From positions 1,690,207-1,723,874 of the forward strand of contig CP070799.1 in NCBI GenBank assembly GCA_020343535.1: a stretch of 33,668 nucleotides of DNA, read 5' to 3'. The notes below the pieces were generated by a model. It was not told where the DNA came from. It did not search any database and saw nothing but the letters and a program-made list of their open reading frames with translations. Source of the DNA: Nitrospinaceae bacterium (GTDB lineage: Bacteria > Nitrospinota > Nitrospinia > Nitrospinales > VA-1). The translations under genes and the position numbers were made by a program. Each line of letters opens with the position of its first letter. The first letter of the stretch is position 1. Shown one piece after another: positions 1 to 33,668 of this stretch.

Positions 1-1722
1 GCCGGTACCGAAACAGATGACGAGCGCTTTTTGGGGCGCGGGGTGCAGCGCCATGGGCACGAAGCCCATCGCCTCCATGTAGGCGCTGCCGCCGAAGGAT
101 CGCGAGACGGTCGCGGTGCTGAAGCCATCGACGTACAGGGTGCGCGCGCCCGTTCCCAGGTCTTCCACCACGCTCAGGGTGGAAAAGTCGCCCTCCTTAT
201 AGGCCAGCAGGCGAGCCCGGGTTTTATCGTCGGTGATCTCGGTACGGGCGAGATTGTTCTCTCCCAGGTGCTGTGTGCTGACGACGGGGTCGGCATACAG
301 AAAGCCGCCGGCGATGCCCAGGGCGCAGGCGGCAAGCGCCGCCGCCGCCGTGCCCGGCCGTGCCCGCAGGTGCACCACGAGCCCGAACGCCGCCAGAAGA
401 ATCAGCCCGGCGAAAATGACGAATAGAGATAGGCGGATGCCCAGCCAGGGAATGAACAGGAAAGGCGTGAGAAACGTGCCCGCCACCGCGCCGAGGGTAT
501 TGAGCGCGTAGCTGTTGCCGAGCGTCCGGCTCACGGTGCCGAAGAGCGAAAGGTGCACCCGGTGCGCCAGCGGAAATGCCAGGCCGAAGCCGAGGGCGGG
601 CGGAAACATCAGGCCGAAGGCGAACAGCGAGCGGACGAGGAGCGTGCGGCTGGGCGTGTTCTCCACGGCATAAAACGATTGGTCGGCCCGAAGCGTCCAT
701 TCGGGGACCTGGTTGAACAGGGGGAGAATGGCGATGGCCGCCGCTCCGATGGCCAGCTCCACAGCTAGGAATTTAAGCGCCCAGCGCGAGTTGCCGAGAG
801 CCTTTTCGGCGATCAGGCTGCCGAGGGCGATGCTGAAGAGAAACGTTGCCAGGATGAGGGCGAAGGAGTACAGGCTGCTGCCCAGGGGAAAGACGAGGAC
901 CCGCGTCCATAAAATTTCGCTCGCCAGCGCCGCCATGCCGGAGTAAACGAAGATGAACAAAAGCAGCAGGCTCTCAAAGCGCGAAGGGGCGGGCTCCTCT
1001 CCTCCCGGTGTATCGAGGTCGGCGGGGCGGGCGTGGCCCCGGCACGCGGCTTCCGGGCGGGGGAGCGTTCTTTTTCGGTGGACGAAGCAGAGAAGAAGCA
1101 CCAGGCCGTTCATCGCCACCGCCGTCAGGGTGGTGCCGCGAATGCCGAAGTTTTCCACCGCGAACCATTGCGTATACAGGCAGCCGAACACCGCGCCCAG
1201 GGTGTTGAGGCTGTACAGGAGCGAAACATCGGCAAATACGCTGCCCGCCCGTCCGCCGATGGACCACGACCCGATGAGTGGCAGGGTGGCCCCCATGAGC
1301 AGGGTCGCGGGCAGCATGAGCAGGGCGCTCAGGATGAATTCCAGACCGTGCAGCAGCGGGCCGGCGGCAAGCTCCGCGTGCATGGCGGCGGGGTAAAGCT
1401 TTTCGAGGAGAGCAAGCCCGTGGGGGAAGGCCAGCCCGTACATACCGATGGCCCCTTCCAGCAGACCGTAAACCCAGACCAGGTCCCAGCCCCGTCCGGT
1501 GGCTTCCAGCCGGTGGAGCACCCGCTGTACCGCCCAGGCGCCAAGGGCGAGACCGCCCATGAACGCGCACAATACGGCGCTGATGGCGTAAAGCGTGCCG
1601 CCGAAGATGAGCGAGAGCTGTTTGATCCAGACCAGTTCGTAGACCAGACTGGCTGCTCCGGAGAGGAACAGGCAGAACAGGGGCAATGCGCGGCCATCGT
1701 GGGTTTTGGGGCTGGAGTTCAT
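1..1722 (-). CDS. Membrane-bound spermidine-synthase-like protein, N-terminal part (runs off left edge)
   Basis: The reading frame is open from an ATG at 1722 to the left edge, giving 574 codons without a stop. The product is strongly hydrophobic, with successive membrane helices starting at LFCLFLSGAASLVYELVW. It ends at the edge with ALVICFGTG, the start of the glycine-rich S-adenosyl-nucleotide loop of spermidine-synthase-like folds. This matches the large fused membrane/spermidine synthase-like family, in which a polytopic N-terminal half precedes a SpeE-like domain. The substrate is unknown, and polyamine synthesis should not be assumed. An AGG about 7 bases upstream serves as a weak ribosome site. 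A broken paralogue of the same architecture lies at 30816-33337. The gene is divergent from the PpiC-type gene at 1892. Overlapping long frames on both strands here look like shadows, with arginine- and proline-rich composition. Confidence 0.85.
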   Translation of the reverse strand, partial: MNSSPKTHDGRALPLFCLFLSGAASLVYELVWIKQLSLIFGGTLYAISAVLCAFMGGLALGAWAVQRVLHRLEATGRGWDLVWVYGLLEGAIGMYGLAFPHGLALLEKLYPAAMHAELAAGPLLHGLEFILSALLMLPATLLMGATLPLIGSWSIGGRAGSVFADVSLLYSLNTLGAVFGCLYTQWFAVENFGIRGTTLTAVAMNGLVLLLCFVHRKRTLPRPEAACRGHARPADLDTPGGEEPAPSRFESLLLLFIFVYSGMAALASEILWTRVLVFPLGSSLYSFALILATFLFSIALGSLIAEKALGNSRWALKFLAVELAIGAAAIAILPLFNQVPEWTLRADQSFYAVENTPSRTLLVRSLFAFGLMFPPALGFGLAFPLAHRVHLSLFGTVSRTLGNSYALNTLGAVAGTFLTPFLFIPWLGIRLSLFVIFAGLILLAAFGLVVHLRARPGTAAAALAACALGIAGGFLYADPVVSTQHLGENNLARTEITDDKTRARLLAYKEGDFSTLSVVEDLGTGARTLYVDGFSTATVSRSFGGSAYMEAMGFVPMALHPAPQKALVICFGTG

Positions 1723-24998: not shown

Positions 24999-25714
24999 GC
25001 CTGATCGAGATGCGGTCCATCAGCAAGGTCTACCGCAATATCGGTTTCGAGACCCAGGTGCTTCGCGGAATTTCCCTGGATATCGAAGAAGGGGAGTACG
25101 TCAGCATCATCGGTCCTTCCGGCGCGGGCAAGAGCACGCTGATGGCCATCATGGGCTGCCTCGCCCTGCCCACGGCGGGAACCTACGCCCTGGACGGCGA
25201 AGAAGTGCAGAGGATGAGCGACCGCCGGCTCTCGCGCGTGCGCAACGAGAAAATCGGTTTCGTCTTCCAGGCGTTTCATCTGCTGAAGGGGGTGCCGGCG
25301 ATCGACAACGTGATGATGCCGCTGATGTATTCGGAGCGCGTCCCTAAGGACGCCGCCCGCCGTGCCGAGGCGGCGCTCACGCGGGTGGGCCTCGGCCACC
25401 GCCTCCGCCACACTCCCGGCCAGCTTTCTGGCGGTGAGCAGCAGCGCGTGACCATCGCACGGGCGCTCATCACCCAGCCCCGTATCATCCTCGCCGACGA
25501 GCCCACCGGCAACCTCGACTCCAAAAATGGCGCGGAAATCATGGCCGCGTTTGATTTGTTGAACGCCGAGGGGACGACGATCATTCTCATCACGCACGAG
25601 CAGGAGGTGGCCCGGCACGCCAGCCGTATCATCACCTTGAAGGATGGATTGATTGAGACCGACAAGCGCTATGAGAATCTTCCGCAATCTGAGACAGGCC
25701 CTCCGCGGGCTTAG
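24995..25714 (+). CDS. ABC transporter ATP-binding protein (MacB/LolD type)
   Basis: The 239-residue ATPase has Walker A GPSGAGKST (40-48), Q-loop VFQAFHLL, ABC signature LSGGEQQRV (144-152), Walker B IILADEP (164-170), D-loop NLDS and H-loop ITHEQ. The sequence is typical of the MacB/LolD/FtsE clade that powers FtsX-fold permeases. Translation is probably coupled to the adaptor gene (ATGA at 24995-24998). Its last 44 bases overlap the first permease gene. The exported substrate is unknown; macrolides, lipoproteins or peptides are known for relatives. Confidence 0.93.
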   Translation: MSLIEMRSISKVYRNIGFETQVLRGISLDIEEGEYVSIIGPSGAGKSTLMAIMGCLALPTAGTYALDGEEVQRMSDRRLSRVRNEKIGFVFQAFHLLKGVPAIDNVMMPLMYSERVPKDAARRAEAALTRVGLGHRLRHTPGQLSGGEQQRVTIARALITQPRIILADEPTGNLDSKNGAEIMAAFDLLNAEGTTIILITHEQEVARHASRIITLKDGLIETDKRYENLPQSETGPPRA

Positions 25715-26879
25715 GCAAAGCAAGGGCAACACCTTCCTGATGACGCTGGGCATTCTCATCGGGATCGGGTCGCTCACCATTATCGTCGCCATCGGCGAGG
25801 GCGCCAAGGCCAAGGTTCTGGAGCGGATCACCAATCTGGGCTTCGGTCCGGATTCCTTCTCGGTCATGGCGGGGGCGGGCCGCCTGTTCTTCGCCCGAAC
25901 CGATCAGCCCACCAGCATGACCCTGCAAGACGCCGACGACATCCGCGCCATGCCCACTGTGCGTTTCGTCGTGCCCCGGCAGCGGGTTTCCATGCAGGCG
26001 AAATACCGGGAGCGGTTTACCGAGACCCGTGTCTACGGCGTGACACCGGAATGGCAGGACGCGCGCGGCTGGGCGCTGGCGGACGGGTCGTTCTTCGGCG
26101 AAGATGCCATGGAGCGCAAGTAGCGGGTCATCGTGCTTGGGGCGACGCCGGCGAAAAAGCTGTTTGAAGGCGAGGACCCTATCGGGAAAAAAATCCGGCT
26201 CGGCCAGGTGAGCTTCGAGGTCGCCGGCCTATTGCAGGAGAAGGGGCTCACCGAAAGTGGTTACGACCCCGACGACCGGGCGCTGATTCCCCTTACCACC
26301 TCGATATCGCGCCTCCTTAATCAAACCCACCTCCACAGCATCAAGGTGGTGGCCGTGAGGCCCGACAAGGTGGCCGAGGTCATGCAGGCGGTGCGTCTGC
26401 TGCTGCGCCGCAACCACAACCTGTCGCCTCTCGCCGAGGATGATTTCCGCTTTGTCACTCCGGAGGGAATCATGCAGTGGGTCACTCGGTCGGAACAGGC
26501 GCTCAACCGGATGCTGATCCTGGTGTCGACGGTGTCCCTGCTGGTGGGGGGGATTGTCATCATGAATATCCTGTTGGTGTCGATTCGCGAGCGGGTTCGC
26601 GAGATCGGCATCCGCCGCTGTTTCGGCGCGCGCCGGTCCGACATCACCCAGCAGTTCCTGTTTGAGTCGGTGTTCGTGTCTCTCCTGGGCGGGGCGCTCG
26701 GTGTCGCCACGGGACTCGGGGTCTCCCTCCTGCTTGAGCGGCTGGATTTCCTGCCCGCACAGGTGACCTGGGAGCCCTTCGCGCTGGCTTTCGTTTTTTC
26801 AAGCCTTGTTGGGCTTGTTTTTGGCATTCAGCCGGCGCGCCAGGCGGCGCGGCTCAGCCCGGACGAAACCCTGCGATGA
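25671..26879 (+). pseudogene. First MacB/FtsX-type ABC permease, interrupted by an in-frame TAG
   Basis: The frame starts at ATG 25671 (MRIFRNLRQALRGL) with a first helix TFLMTLGILIGIGSLTIIVA and a MacB-type periplasmic domain. At 26121-26123 it reads TAG between AMERK and RVIVLGATPAKKLFEGEDPIGKK. It then continues in the same frame to 26879 through the rest of the periplasmic domain and three more helices (MLILVSTVSLLVGGIVIMNI and two C-terminal). Residues around the stop match the usual flow of the family (VVVLG..A..LFG..DPIGK). A single C-to-T change of a CAG would account for it. Without the stop the protein would be 402 residues, close to its neighbour. It is either a true nonsense mutation or a consensus error. 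Confidence 0.85.
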
Positions 26880-29255: not shown

Positions 29256-30203
29256 CTAAGCACCGCCTTTGATCAGGGCAAAGGCCTCGCTGGCTGCGTT
29301 GAGGCGTGCGTGTTGATCTTCGTCGAGCGTGAGTTGCTGCGCGCCCGCGAAGCCCGCCACCTGGCTGGCCTTTCTGGAACCCACCACGGCGGTGAAAATA
29401 TTATCCTGTGAAAGCGCCCAGGCCACCGCCACGGCGGCCGGAGCGACCCCGGCTTCATCGGCGATTTCCTCGACCGTCTGGTAAACCTTGAGCGCGTGCG
29501 GGAAGAGCGGCTCGTTGTACAGGGGATTGCTTTGCCGGGTGGGCGATTTTTTCGCCTCCTTGTCCAGGCGCCCCGCGAGCAGACCCTGGGCGGTGGGTGA
29601 ATAGGCCATATAGCCGATGTGCGCCCGCCTGCAGGTATCGCGGGTGGCGCCTTCAAACTCGCGTTCCAGCAGGTTGTAAGGCACCTGATTGACGGAGAAT
29701 TCACTGAGGTTCGGGCCGAGGCGCACCAGGTCGTCCTGATGAAAATTGGACAGGCCGACGAGCCGCGCCTTGCCGCTTTTTTTTAGGGCGGTCATGGCTT
29801 CCACGAGCCGGGCGGATTTTTCCTCGCTGTCGAAGTACGGCCCTGGCCAGTGGATGAGATAAGCATCGACATAATCGCGGCCGAGGGCGGTAAGGCTTGC
29901 TTCGAGATGGCCCTGATAGCTGGCGATGGATAGTTCGGCGTCGGGCCAGATTTTGGAAATGATGACAACGTCATTTTTCCGGGGCCCGAGGGCCCTTGCC
30001 AGCCGCCGTTCGGATTCACCGTCGCCGTATCCCTCCGCGGTATCGAACGCGGTGATGCCCGCGTCGAGCGCGGCTTGCACCACCGCATCGGCTTCCAGCG
30101 GCGTGCACCGGTCTCCCCAGCCTTCGCGAGGGGCGAGCTGCCAGCAGCCGAAGGTGATCCGGCTCCAGTTTTTCCGCAAGGCCTGCCCCAGGGTATCGCC
30201 CAC
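29256..30203 (-). CDS. Aldo/keto reductase family oxidoreductase
   Basis: The 315-residue protein has the complete AKR tetrad: Asp54 in FDTAEGYGDGESE, Tyr59, Lys84 in IISKIWPD and His118 in YLIHWPGP. NADPH-binding elements include VGLSNF, VNQVPYNLLERE and the C-terminal VVGSRKASQVAGFAGA. Such enzymes reduce aldehydes or ketones with NADPH in the cytoplasm; the substrate is not predictable. The start begins MGDTLGQALRKNWSRITFGCWQL. It follows the 30205-30507 gene on the same strand by a single base, so the two form one unit. Confidence 0.92.
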   Translation of the reverse strand: MGDTLGQALRKNWSRITFGCWQLAPREGWGDRCTPLEADAVVQAALDAGITAFDTAEGYGDGESERRLARALGPRKNDVVIISKIWPDAELSIASYQGHLEASLTALGRDYVDAYLIHWPGPYFDSEEKSARLVEAMTALKKSGKARLVGLSNFHQDDLVRLGPNLSEFSVNQVPYNLLEREFEGATRDTCRRAHIGYMAYSPTAQGLLAGRLDKEAKKSPTRQSNPLYNEPLFPHALKVYQTVEEIADEAGVAPAAVAVAWALSQDNIFTAVVGSRKASQVAGFAGAQQLTLDEDQHARLNAASEAFALIKGGA

Positions 30204-30204
30204 G

Positions 30205-30507
30205 TTATCTCAGGATAAAGGTAATGGTTCTTTGCCGGCGCATATTATCGCCTTCCCCGTAGGGGCCGAAGGAATCCTGCCAATCGAAGATGCGGTTTTT
30301 CATCTTCCAGACGCGGTAGGCCGCCAGCAGGATGGAGACCCCCGCGAACAAAATGAAAGATGCGAACAGGAACGCGATGAACTCGGGAAATATGAAAATC
30401 AAGATCGCGAGGGCCACGAGAAAAACGCCTAGCGTGAGAAGACCCTTCCGCATGGCCCGGTAGCCCTGGTCGAAAATATCGTTTGCATGACCCCATTCCT
30501 CAGGCAT
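30205..30507 (-). CDS. Small two-helix membrane protein of unknown function
   Basis: The 100-residue protein has two adjacent hydrophobic helices (about 22-39 and 42-62) and a charged C-terminal tail ending MRRQRTITFILR. An excellent ribosome site AAAGGAGG lies 5 bases before the ATG, which supports the start. The aldo/keto reductase gene begins directly after its stop. No family is recognised. Confidence 0.8.
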   Translation of the reverse strand: MPEEWGHANDIFDQGYRAMRKGLLTLGVFLVALAILIFIFPEFIAFLFASFILFAGVSILLAAYRVWKMKNRIFDWQDSFGPYGEGDNMRRQRTITFILR

Positions 30508-30815
30508 GAGCGCCTCCTTTCATGTCATGCTCAAACAATAAGATCGGCCAGGGGGTCTGTCAAGGCCACTCCTGATGGAAGGAAGGGAGGCGATGTGCCC
30601 TGGTTTCTGCTGAGGAGGATCATTAATGCGCGAAGCTTGTTTGTTTTTAGATTGTTAGTTATACTGAAAGTGTAATTTTGCTGCCGCCGTCGAGATCAGG
30701 CAAGAGGGATGCAACGCTCGCCGAGCCAACTTGGCCCATTCACTTCAGTTATCCGGTTCACGGAATCCCCGCCCCTTCGCGGATTTTTTCTCATTTTTCA
30801 GGGTTTAAAGGATCT
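30508..30815. other. 308-base intergenic region between divergent genes
   Basis: Nothing coding is supported here. It carries the ribosome site of the minus-strand gene next to 30508, a plus-strand promoter candidate at 30637-30665, and an AT-rich stretch around 30640-30680. An AAAGGA ribosome site (30808-30813) precedes the ATG at 30816. Confidence 0.7.
30637..30665 (+). promoter_or_regulatory. Candidate sigma70 promoter for the second spermidine-synthase-like gene
   Basis: TTGTTT (30637-30642), 17 bases, then TATACT (30660-30665). The transcript would have a leader of about 145 bases before ATG 30816. Confidence 0.5.
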
Positions 30816-33337
30816 ATGGATGATAAGCGATTGTCTCGTCTGACCGTACTGTCCATTCTTCTCGTATTTTTGACCGGTTGTACGGCGCTGGTGTTTCAAA
30901 ACACCTGGCATCAATATCTGACCTATCTTCTTGGTTCGTAATCCGAATCGGCCGCTCTCATCATTTCCGTATTTCTGGGCGGCATGTCCCTGGGCTACTT
31001 TCTGTATGGCCGGCTTTCACAACGTTATCGGGCGAATCTTTTTAAAGTATACGGAGCGACTGAGTTTTTCATCGGCATCTGGGCCTTGTTTTCGCCGAAT
31101 ATCTACCAGGCGCTGGCGATGGTCAAGCTTACCGGCTTTCCCGGTGAACTCGGGGTCACGGTGTTATTCCTCGGCATTCCCACGGTGTTGATGGGTGCGA
31201 CCATTCCCATTTTGACGCAGGCCCTTAGCCTTCATGTCAAAACCGCCACACGGATTCATTCTCTCGTTTACGGGATCAATACGCTGGGCGCCGCGACGGG
31301 TTCGATGCTGGCGGGGTTTTATTTTCTGCCGAGGTTGGGGCTTCCCCTGAGCCTGATGTATTGTGGGGCAATCAATCTGCTGGTCGGAGTATCGTTTTAT
31401 TTTTTGAGTCCCATTTGGAGCCGGGGTTATTTTTTCGATTCTCCTCCGAAGCAGGCCCCGGCGAAAAACCGCTCCCGGAAAGGCCCAGCCTGGAACTGGC
31501 TTTGGAGCATCGCTTTCCTTTCGGGGTTTATCACCATTGGCCTGGAGATCATCATGATCCGGTTGATGGGGCTTGCAGCGGGGTCTTCGACCTATTCTTT
31601 TTCACTGATCGTGGGAATATTTTTGGTGTGCATCGCCCTGGGGGGGGCTCTGGTCGGCAGGATTAAAAGCATTCCCAGGTGGAGTCTGATATTTCTGTTG
31701 CTCGCGGCCGGAGGTTCTTTATTATTGCTCTACCGGTCGGTCGAAACCTGGCCTTACTACGTGCATATTTTACGCACGTTCTTCACATCCAACCCCGAGA
31801 CCTTCCCGGTTTATTTCGCGGCGTTGTCGATGGCCGTCATGCTGGTGTTGCTGGTGCCGATTTCATTGTGTGGGGCGACCTTGCCTCTTTGTTTCGATTA
31901 TCTGAAAAGAAAGCAAAAGGAATTGGGCCGGGAGTCAGGCTCGCTCTACGCCATAAACACCCTGGGGTGCGTGCTGGGCGCTCTTCAGCCGGGATACTCC
32001 CTTTTGCACTGGTTCAACCTGAATGAGATTTTCCTGTTCATCATTTATCTCAATGGGCTGGCGATGCTGATAGCCCTGTTGAAGTTGATGCCGGAACTGT
32101 CGCGCCGGGCGGCAGTGGGGTTTGTCGGTGCGGCAGGCGTTCTGGCTGCATTTCTGTTCGCGCAACCCTTGTGGGAAAATCAGTACCTGGCGTTGGGGGC
32201 TTTTCGCACGCAGGAGAAAATAGCGCCGTCGTTCAACGGGCCTGAGGCCTTGCTTTACCCGCATAAAGCGCTTTATTACGATGACGGACCGGTGGTGTCG
32301 GTTTCGGTCCTTCCCGATGGGCAGCAACCTCCAGGGCTCGCGATCCAGGTGAACGGAAAACCGGAAGGCCACACGAAGGCCGATTTCTTCACCATGCAAT
32401 TGACAGGTCATATTCCGGTGTTGCTGGCGATTAATCCGGAAAAGACCTGTGTCATCGGTTTTGGTACCGGCATCAGCGCCGGTGTCATGCAAGAGTATCC
32501 TGAAGTGGGGCAAGTGGATTTAATCGAGATCAATGCCAAGGTCCTGGAAGCGGGGAGATTATTTTCGGATTACAACTACCAGGTCCTGGACAGCCCAAAA
32601 GTGGGAGTGTTTCGTACCGATGCGTTTCGCTTTTTCCGCCTGGAGAAGGGGCCCTACGATGTTATTGTCAGCGAGCCTAGCAATCCTTGGATGGCCGGGG
32701 TGGCGAATTTGTTCACCTCCGATTTTTATGACTTGGTCCAGCAAAACCTTGCCGAGGACGGAATTTTCTTTCAATGGATTCAGTTTTATTCCCTCTCCCC
32801 CGAGACCTTGAAGCTGGTCGTGAACACCTTTCGATCGAGCTTTCCCTATTACTACTATTTTTACTTGGGGGGGGGGCCGATGCCGGCCTGATGGGCTCGA
32901 AGAAACCTCTGTCGGTGGATCAGTTAATGAAAGCTCATCGGCGATTGCTGGACCCGGAAAAGAACCGTGCCTTGCGGGAGGTGGGCTTTAATCATGTGGC
33001 GCAAATCCTGCAATTGGAAATTTTTTCCGGAGAGGAGATTGATCGATTGTCTGAAGAGGCGGGGATCAATACCCTAGAAAACCCAAAACTCGGGTATTGG
33101 GCCGGAAAAGATTTTTTCCTCAATCAGGGGGTCGATCTATCTAAGGTTGGCGCGAGGGCGTCAGGTCAATTTAACCCGGAATCGATGGCGGTTTCCATGT
33201 GGCGGTCCCATTCGGGGGAAAAGAGCTGGGTGCCCATTCCCGATGCATTTTGCATGGCCTCCCGCGGAACGTGCGACTGGCTGAAGGCCAGAGACCAGGT
33301 GAGCGCGCAGGTGTCTAGGAGGCCTTCTTCCGGCTAA
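30816..33337 (+). pseudogene. Second membrane-bound spermidine-synthase-like gene, with an in-frame TAA and a frameshift
   Basis: The frame starts at ATG 30816 with MDDKRLSRLTVLSILLVFLTGCTALVFQNTW (read in parts). It meets TAA at 30939-30941 after YLLGS and resumes at once in the same frame with SESAALIISVFLGGMSLGYF. A polytopic membrane half follows, then a SpeE-like domain with VIGFGTGISAG (SAM-type loop), LIEINAKVLEAG, DAFRFF and DVIVSEPSNPWMAGVANLF. At a run of ten G (32867-32876) the frame shifts. The C-terminal part continues to 33337 in another frame with LMGSKKPLSVDQLM and INTLENPKLGYW, which fits the end of the family. Eleven or eight G would restore it. Intact length would be about 840 residues. 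Convergent with the glycosylase gene, overlapping by 4 bases. Confidence 0.85.
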
Positions 33338-33668
33338 CTTCCCACCGTTCTTAAAATATTTTTCACCTGATCGAAATCCTGCATTTGCCTGGCCAGCGGG
33401 CGTCGCCAGTTGGTGACGCGCGGGCTGGGATGAAAGAGGGGGAGCAGCAGGAATTCTTGCGTCTGTTCAAGTTGTGCGGCTTTTTCAGGCAGGGTGAAGC
33501 GGGTGCCGAGCAGGTGGTTTACGGCCTTTAGGCCGACGCCGCCCAGGGTGACCACGAGCCTGGGCGAAATAATATCCAGAACCCGGCCAAGGTAATGCGA
33601 GCAGTTCTGGATTTCGCTCGCACGCGGCGTGCGGCTTCGCCCATCTTTCAGCGGCGTGCACAGAACGG
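33334..33668 (-). CDS. Uracil-DNA glycosylase family protein, C-terminal part (runs off right edge)
   Basis: The frame is open from the right edge to a TAG at 33334. It reads VLCTPLKDGRSRTPRASEIQ (read at the edge), then CSHYLGRVLDIISPRLVVTLGG, VGLKAVNHLLG and LLPLFHPSPRVTNWRRPLARQ. The C-x-P, E-x-x-x-C and HPSPR patterns are those of the family 4/5 iron-sulfur uracil-DNA glycosylases, which remove uracil from DNA to start base-excision repair. About 111 residues are visible; the N-terminal half with the water-activating motif and first cluster cysteines lies outside the window. The family number cannot be settled from this part. Confidence 0.82.
   Translation of the reverse strand, partial: VLCTPLKDGRSRTPRASEIQNCSHYLGRVLDIISPRLVVTLGGVGLKAVNHLLGTRFTLPEKAAQLEQTQEFLLLPLFHPSPRVTNWRRPLARQMQDFDQVKNILRTVGS

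Follow-up and report, generated by a model that had tools for sequence, protein, structure and literature searches.

A ten-G tract and an upstream nonsense codon in a putatively acquired fused membrane/spermidine-synthase-like gene of a Nitrospinaceae bacterium

The gene and its two lesions

The window, that is the whole stretch of 33,668 nucleotides analysed here, comes from a draft metagenome bin (G000; completeness of 86%), nominally a single-contig genome, in which contigs, roughly ordered by length, were joined by 100 N. It corresponds to one joined contig and ends where an N run starts. Near this end, the forward strand carries a gene related to the fused MFS/spermidine synthase family, which lies between an aldo/keto-reductase-like gene (29259..30203, minus strand) accompanied by a small ORF (30208-30507, minus strand) on the left and a uracil-DNA-glycosylase-like gene (33334..33666, minus strand), cut by the contig end, on the right. 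Both flanking genes were named by eye from their translations. Like other members of the family, the gene combines a polytopic N-terminal part with a C-terminal spermidine-synthase-like domain; it differs from them in that the window copy is broken. The N-terminal part scored 80.5 bits with model NF037959 (fused MFS/spermidine synthase), for a cut-off of 40, and a PF01564 (Spermine_synth) domain was detected in the 5' part of the gene (58.2 bits, above the curated cut-off). Models of true spermidine synthases gave scores below their cut-offs (speE, 70.9 versus 249.55; PRK00811, 79.2 versus 260; PRK03612, 123.2 versus 472). As every model of a true polyamine aminopropyltransferase gave such a result, the family assignment carries no implication of enzyme activity. 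A second fused MFS/spermidine-synthase-like gene, 26% identical to the first and displaying native codon usage, is located at the other end of the contig (window positions 1-1722, minus strand).

Three intact orthologues, L002, L003, and L021, were found in other Nitrospinales and are 50-55% identical to the window gene. Their N-termini align from an ATG at position 30816, which is preceded by AAAGGA and is the probable true start of the 5' part of the gene (30816..32876, plus strand, up to the end of the tract described below). A start at ATG 30984 was rejected on the basis of this alignment, since the orthologues begin about 65 residues upstream from that position and the equivalent stretch is present in frame in the window. 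Codon 42 of the frame initiated at ATG 30816 is a TAA (30939..30941, plus strand), the first disabling lesion, located at a position occupied by an invariant Gln (LLGSQS) in the three orthologues. The same single TAA was found inside the match in a translated search with L002, which does not depend on the alignment.

The second lesion is a G tract (32867-32876, plus strand). The earlier note had described a run of ten G at which the frame leaves the spermidine-synthase-like gene to end at position 32891, the family-typical C-terminus continuing in another frame to position 33337. This description was correct on each point. The tract contains exactly ten G, and translation from ATG 30984 shows that the frame stops at a TGA (32889-32891) behind it. 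The C-terminal part, which is out of frame (DAGLMGSKKPLS...; 32879..33337, plus strand), shows 34% identity to the C-terminus of L002 and 35% to that of L003, indicating that it is genuine. The two frames, which differ by one, are separated by the long homopolymer inside the ORF. Each of the orthologues L002, L003, and L021 crosses the junction in a single uninterrupted frame. A frameshift within a fused membrane/spermidine-synthase-like gene is supported. As assembled, the gene is therefore broken twice, by the nonsense mutation at codon 42 and by the frameshift in the G tract.

It had also been proposed that eleven or eight G would restore a full protein and that the tract might be a phase-variable switch. 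Both lengths do join the two frames. The full product is nevertheless blocked by the TAA at 30939-30941, which lies upstream of the tract, so that no tract length alone can yield it. This is the main argument against slipped-strand phase variation, in which the length of the tract would vary between cells and switch the C-terminus on and off. Two features speak for such a switch: a membrane-protein gene is put off frame by one at a run of ten G, and an exported haem protein has a second off-frame tract, consisting of ten C, in its signal peptide (see below). The upstream stop codon, the lack of a tract in the orthologues, the mostly intergenic location of the nine tracts of 10-11 G/C present in the genome, and the resemblance of the gene to a decaying acquired island (see below) make it very unlikely. 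An explanation by programmed frameshifting at this run of G was dropped, as the orthologues need none and the TAA would remain.

The least probable of the explanations considered is that of a split working gene, in which translation would restart at ATG 30984 and at a TGATG (32889..32893, plus strand), where the premature TGA overlaps an ATG of the downstream frame, thereby producing separate membrane/synthase and C-terminal pieces. The stop/start overlap is in the right frame, and conservation extends to both sides of the tract. However, a protein started at position 30984 would lack the most N-terminal hydrophobic segments, conserved throughout the orthologues, and no clear ribosome site is found ahead of this ATG. 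The overlapping ATG lies within a stretch conserved in the family (LMG/ILG) and may be due to chance, and the gene is split in no relative.

Conservation across the junction and insertion of the gene

The alignment provided information on the ancestral length of the tract. No G tract is present at the junction in L002, L003, and L021. An eight-G version of the window gene has, column for column, the length of the orthologues between PYxYxF and the conserved (L/M)GSK, whereas an eleven-G version adds one residue, this spacing being counted by eye. The tract falls in a linker of variable sequence (QFMRHD, KFNVFD, QTQETD in the orthologues) that directly follows the Spermine_synth domain. Searching the named relatives, Nitrospina sp. 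MSP and Nitrospinaceae bins, returned no match with a single protein as query; with the alignment as query, it recovered the orthologues already identified and one fragment close to the end of a contig.

Divergence was evaluated at the columns that are identical in the other three copies. Of these columns, 16.1% before the tract and 17.2% behind it are changed in the window copy. The corresponding values, on the two sides of the tract position, are 16.7% and 7.7% for the intact orthologue L021 and 11.3% and 20.0% for L002; the part behind the tract is thus conserved about as in intact copies. Overall, no excess of substitutions was detected at otherwise invariant columns (16% for the window copy versus 17% for an intact orthologue). 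The gene displays the disabling changes of a pseudogene, a nonsense mutation and a frameshift relative to intact orthologues, with no sign at these columns of the relaxed constraint that is expected of an old pseudogene but not required of a recent one. This indicates either that inactivation was recent or that one of the lesions is a consensus error, the gene being intact in most cells.

The gene and about 250 bp of AT-richer upstream DNA form an insertion (approximately 30566..33335, no strand assigned; 30422-33372 as delimited by strict blastn). In G001:C201, a contig from the single further same-genus genome that was compared, the left and right flanks adjoin without the gene, revealing an empty site. 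The uracil-DNA-glycosylase and aldo/keto-reductase genes are also close together, with no copy between them, in genomes G027 and G031, whose own copies of the gene sit on other contigs. The GC content of the island is 0.528 (52.8%) versus 0.611 (61.1%) around it, and the codon usage of its gene is atypical (log-odds per codon of 0.036 versus 0.17-0.25 in the neighbouring genes). The gene was found in 4 of the 77 genomes of the class. The empty site in relatives combined with the foreign composition points to horizontal acquisition. The orthologues and their genomic surroundings have a GC content of 43-50%, which would fit a donor belonging to the lower-GC Nitrospinales. Inverted repeats were not found at the island edges, which harbor only short repeat pairs of the kind expected by chance and thus no mobile-element signature; no plasmid record resembles the island.

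Long G/C tracts and broken frames in the bin

The main rival to recent inactivation is homopolymer miscounting, according to which the length of the tract is a consensus or assembly error, the TAA a strain variant or another error, and the gene intact in most cells. The draft nature of the bin, with its contigs joined by 100 N, and the conservation of the protein on both sides of the tract are in favor of this possibility, and Illumina sequencing may yield spurious homopolymer indels (PMC8808543). Several observations count against it. The TAA cannot arise by homopolymer error. The ancestral spacing corresponds to eight G, two below the observed number, and an undercount by one base would imply an extra codon. 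The nine-base tracts located inside long open frames do not shorten these frames.

Broken frames were counted in a filtered gene comparison, which is small and favours conserved genes, so that the rates are rough: 72 kb of comparable sequence in G000 contained one lesion, and the 48 kb and 59 kb compared in two relatives contained none. The sole lesion in these 72 kb was the TAG at position 26121 of the same window, in a MacB-like permease gene; no frameshift was present, which also argues against miscounting. Two lesions in a gene of 2.5 kb, for about 0.035 expected, are unlikely to result from random noise. The filtered homology survey was used because the unfiltered version was swamped by antisense ORFs. 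A codon-based frameshift scan was discarded as too noisy, since gene overlaps and 100-N gaps entered its count and the lesion at the tract escaped it. The TAG is in frame (26121-26123) and interrupts a MacB/FtsX-like permease gene (25671-26876); at this site, the orthologue from the same genus, in G001:C201, has the uninterrupted sequence MERKRRVIVLG.

Long G runs as such are unexceptional in the window and in the genome. The window contains five eight-G words, for 4.9 expected from dinucleotide frequencies, and in the genome the number of G/C runs falls from 36 at a length of exactly eight bases to 15 at nine, 7 at ten, and 2 at eleven. One of the tracts of at least ten bases is harmless, since the exonuclease domain of the oligoribonuclease-like gene that carries it is already complete at that point. 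Another, a ten-C tract (L054:2504-2513, that is G000:C1:1102203-1102212), lies between a signal peptide, whose ATG has a good ribosome site, and a conserved Tll0287-like haem protein and puts the two in different frames. In relatives, including a 73% identical copy in G001, the signal peptide and the haem protein are in one frame. A second paralogue of the haem protein, at G000:C1:2187035, has an open frame.

Two of the three genic ten-base tracts are thus off frame, in the same sense, which suggests either miscounting of long tracts in the bin or real slippage. This second tract breaking a conserved frame counts for the error explanation, and it leaves both error and slippage open for the G tract, though not for the TAA. 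On balance, we consider it doubtful that an error accounts for the broken gene. It is a long shot that G/C tracts of at least ten bases slip in natural populations of this lineage and switch exported or membrane proteins, namely this gene and the Tll0287-like haem protein, as a contingency system of a nitrite-oxidiser lineage, the TAA being a local strain lesion; should mixed tract lengths occur at both sites, they would be a first pointer to phase-variable genes among marine nitrite oxidisers. Many very long G/C tracts (15, 23, 25, 26, and 40 nt) are present near or between genes in G008, a 98% complete Nitrospinaceae genome. They were rejected as a family sign of phase variation, having no consistent genic placement.

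Origin of the lesions and comparison with known systems

Together, the two lesions, the empty site, and the foreign composition probably reflect a horizontally acquired fused membrane/spermidine-synthase-like gene that was recently inactivated. In this scenario, the tract would descend from about eight G, provided by two Gly codons and neighbouring G, and would have grown through ordinary replication slippage, to which it is prone. A slippage-prone G run in a variable linker may thus have supplied one of the two lesions. The lineage would make no full-length protein from the gene, and the tract would have no regulatory role. More generally, what looks like a poly-G switch can turn out to be an acquired gene at an early stage of decay, and the switch falls away once inspection of the true start codon and of the orthologues brings another lesion to light.

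Two known systems are relevant to this locus. The poly-G contingency genes catalogued in Campylobacter and Neisseria (PMC6321876, PMC5320596) resemble the window gene in having a long G tract in a membrane-protein gene, with the frame off by one. The window gene differs from them by a nonsense lesion that is independent of the tract and by the absence of the tract from orthologues. The inlA gene of Listeria (PMC2831843) is similar in that a frameshift caused by a homopolymer indel inactivates the gene; in the window gene, the tract is composed of G and located near the 3' end, in contrast to the 5' A tract of inlA, and a nonsense codon is present in addition.
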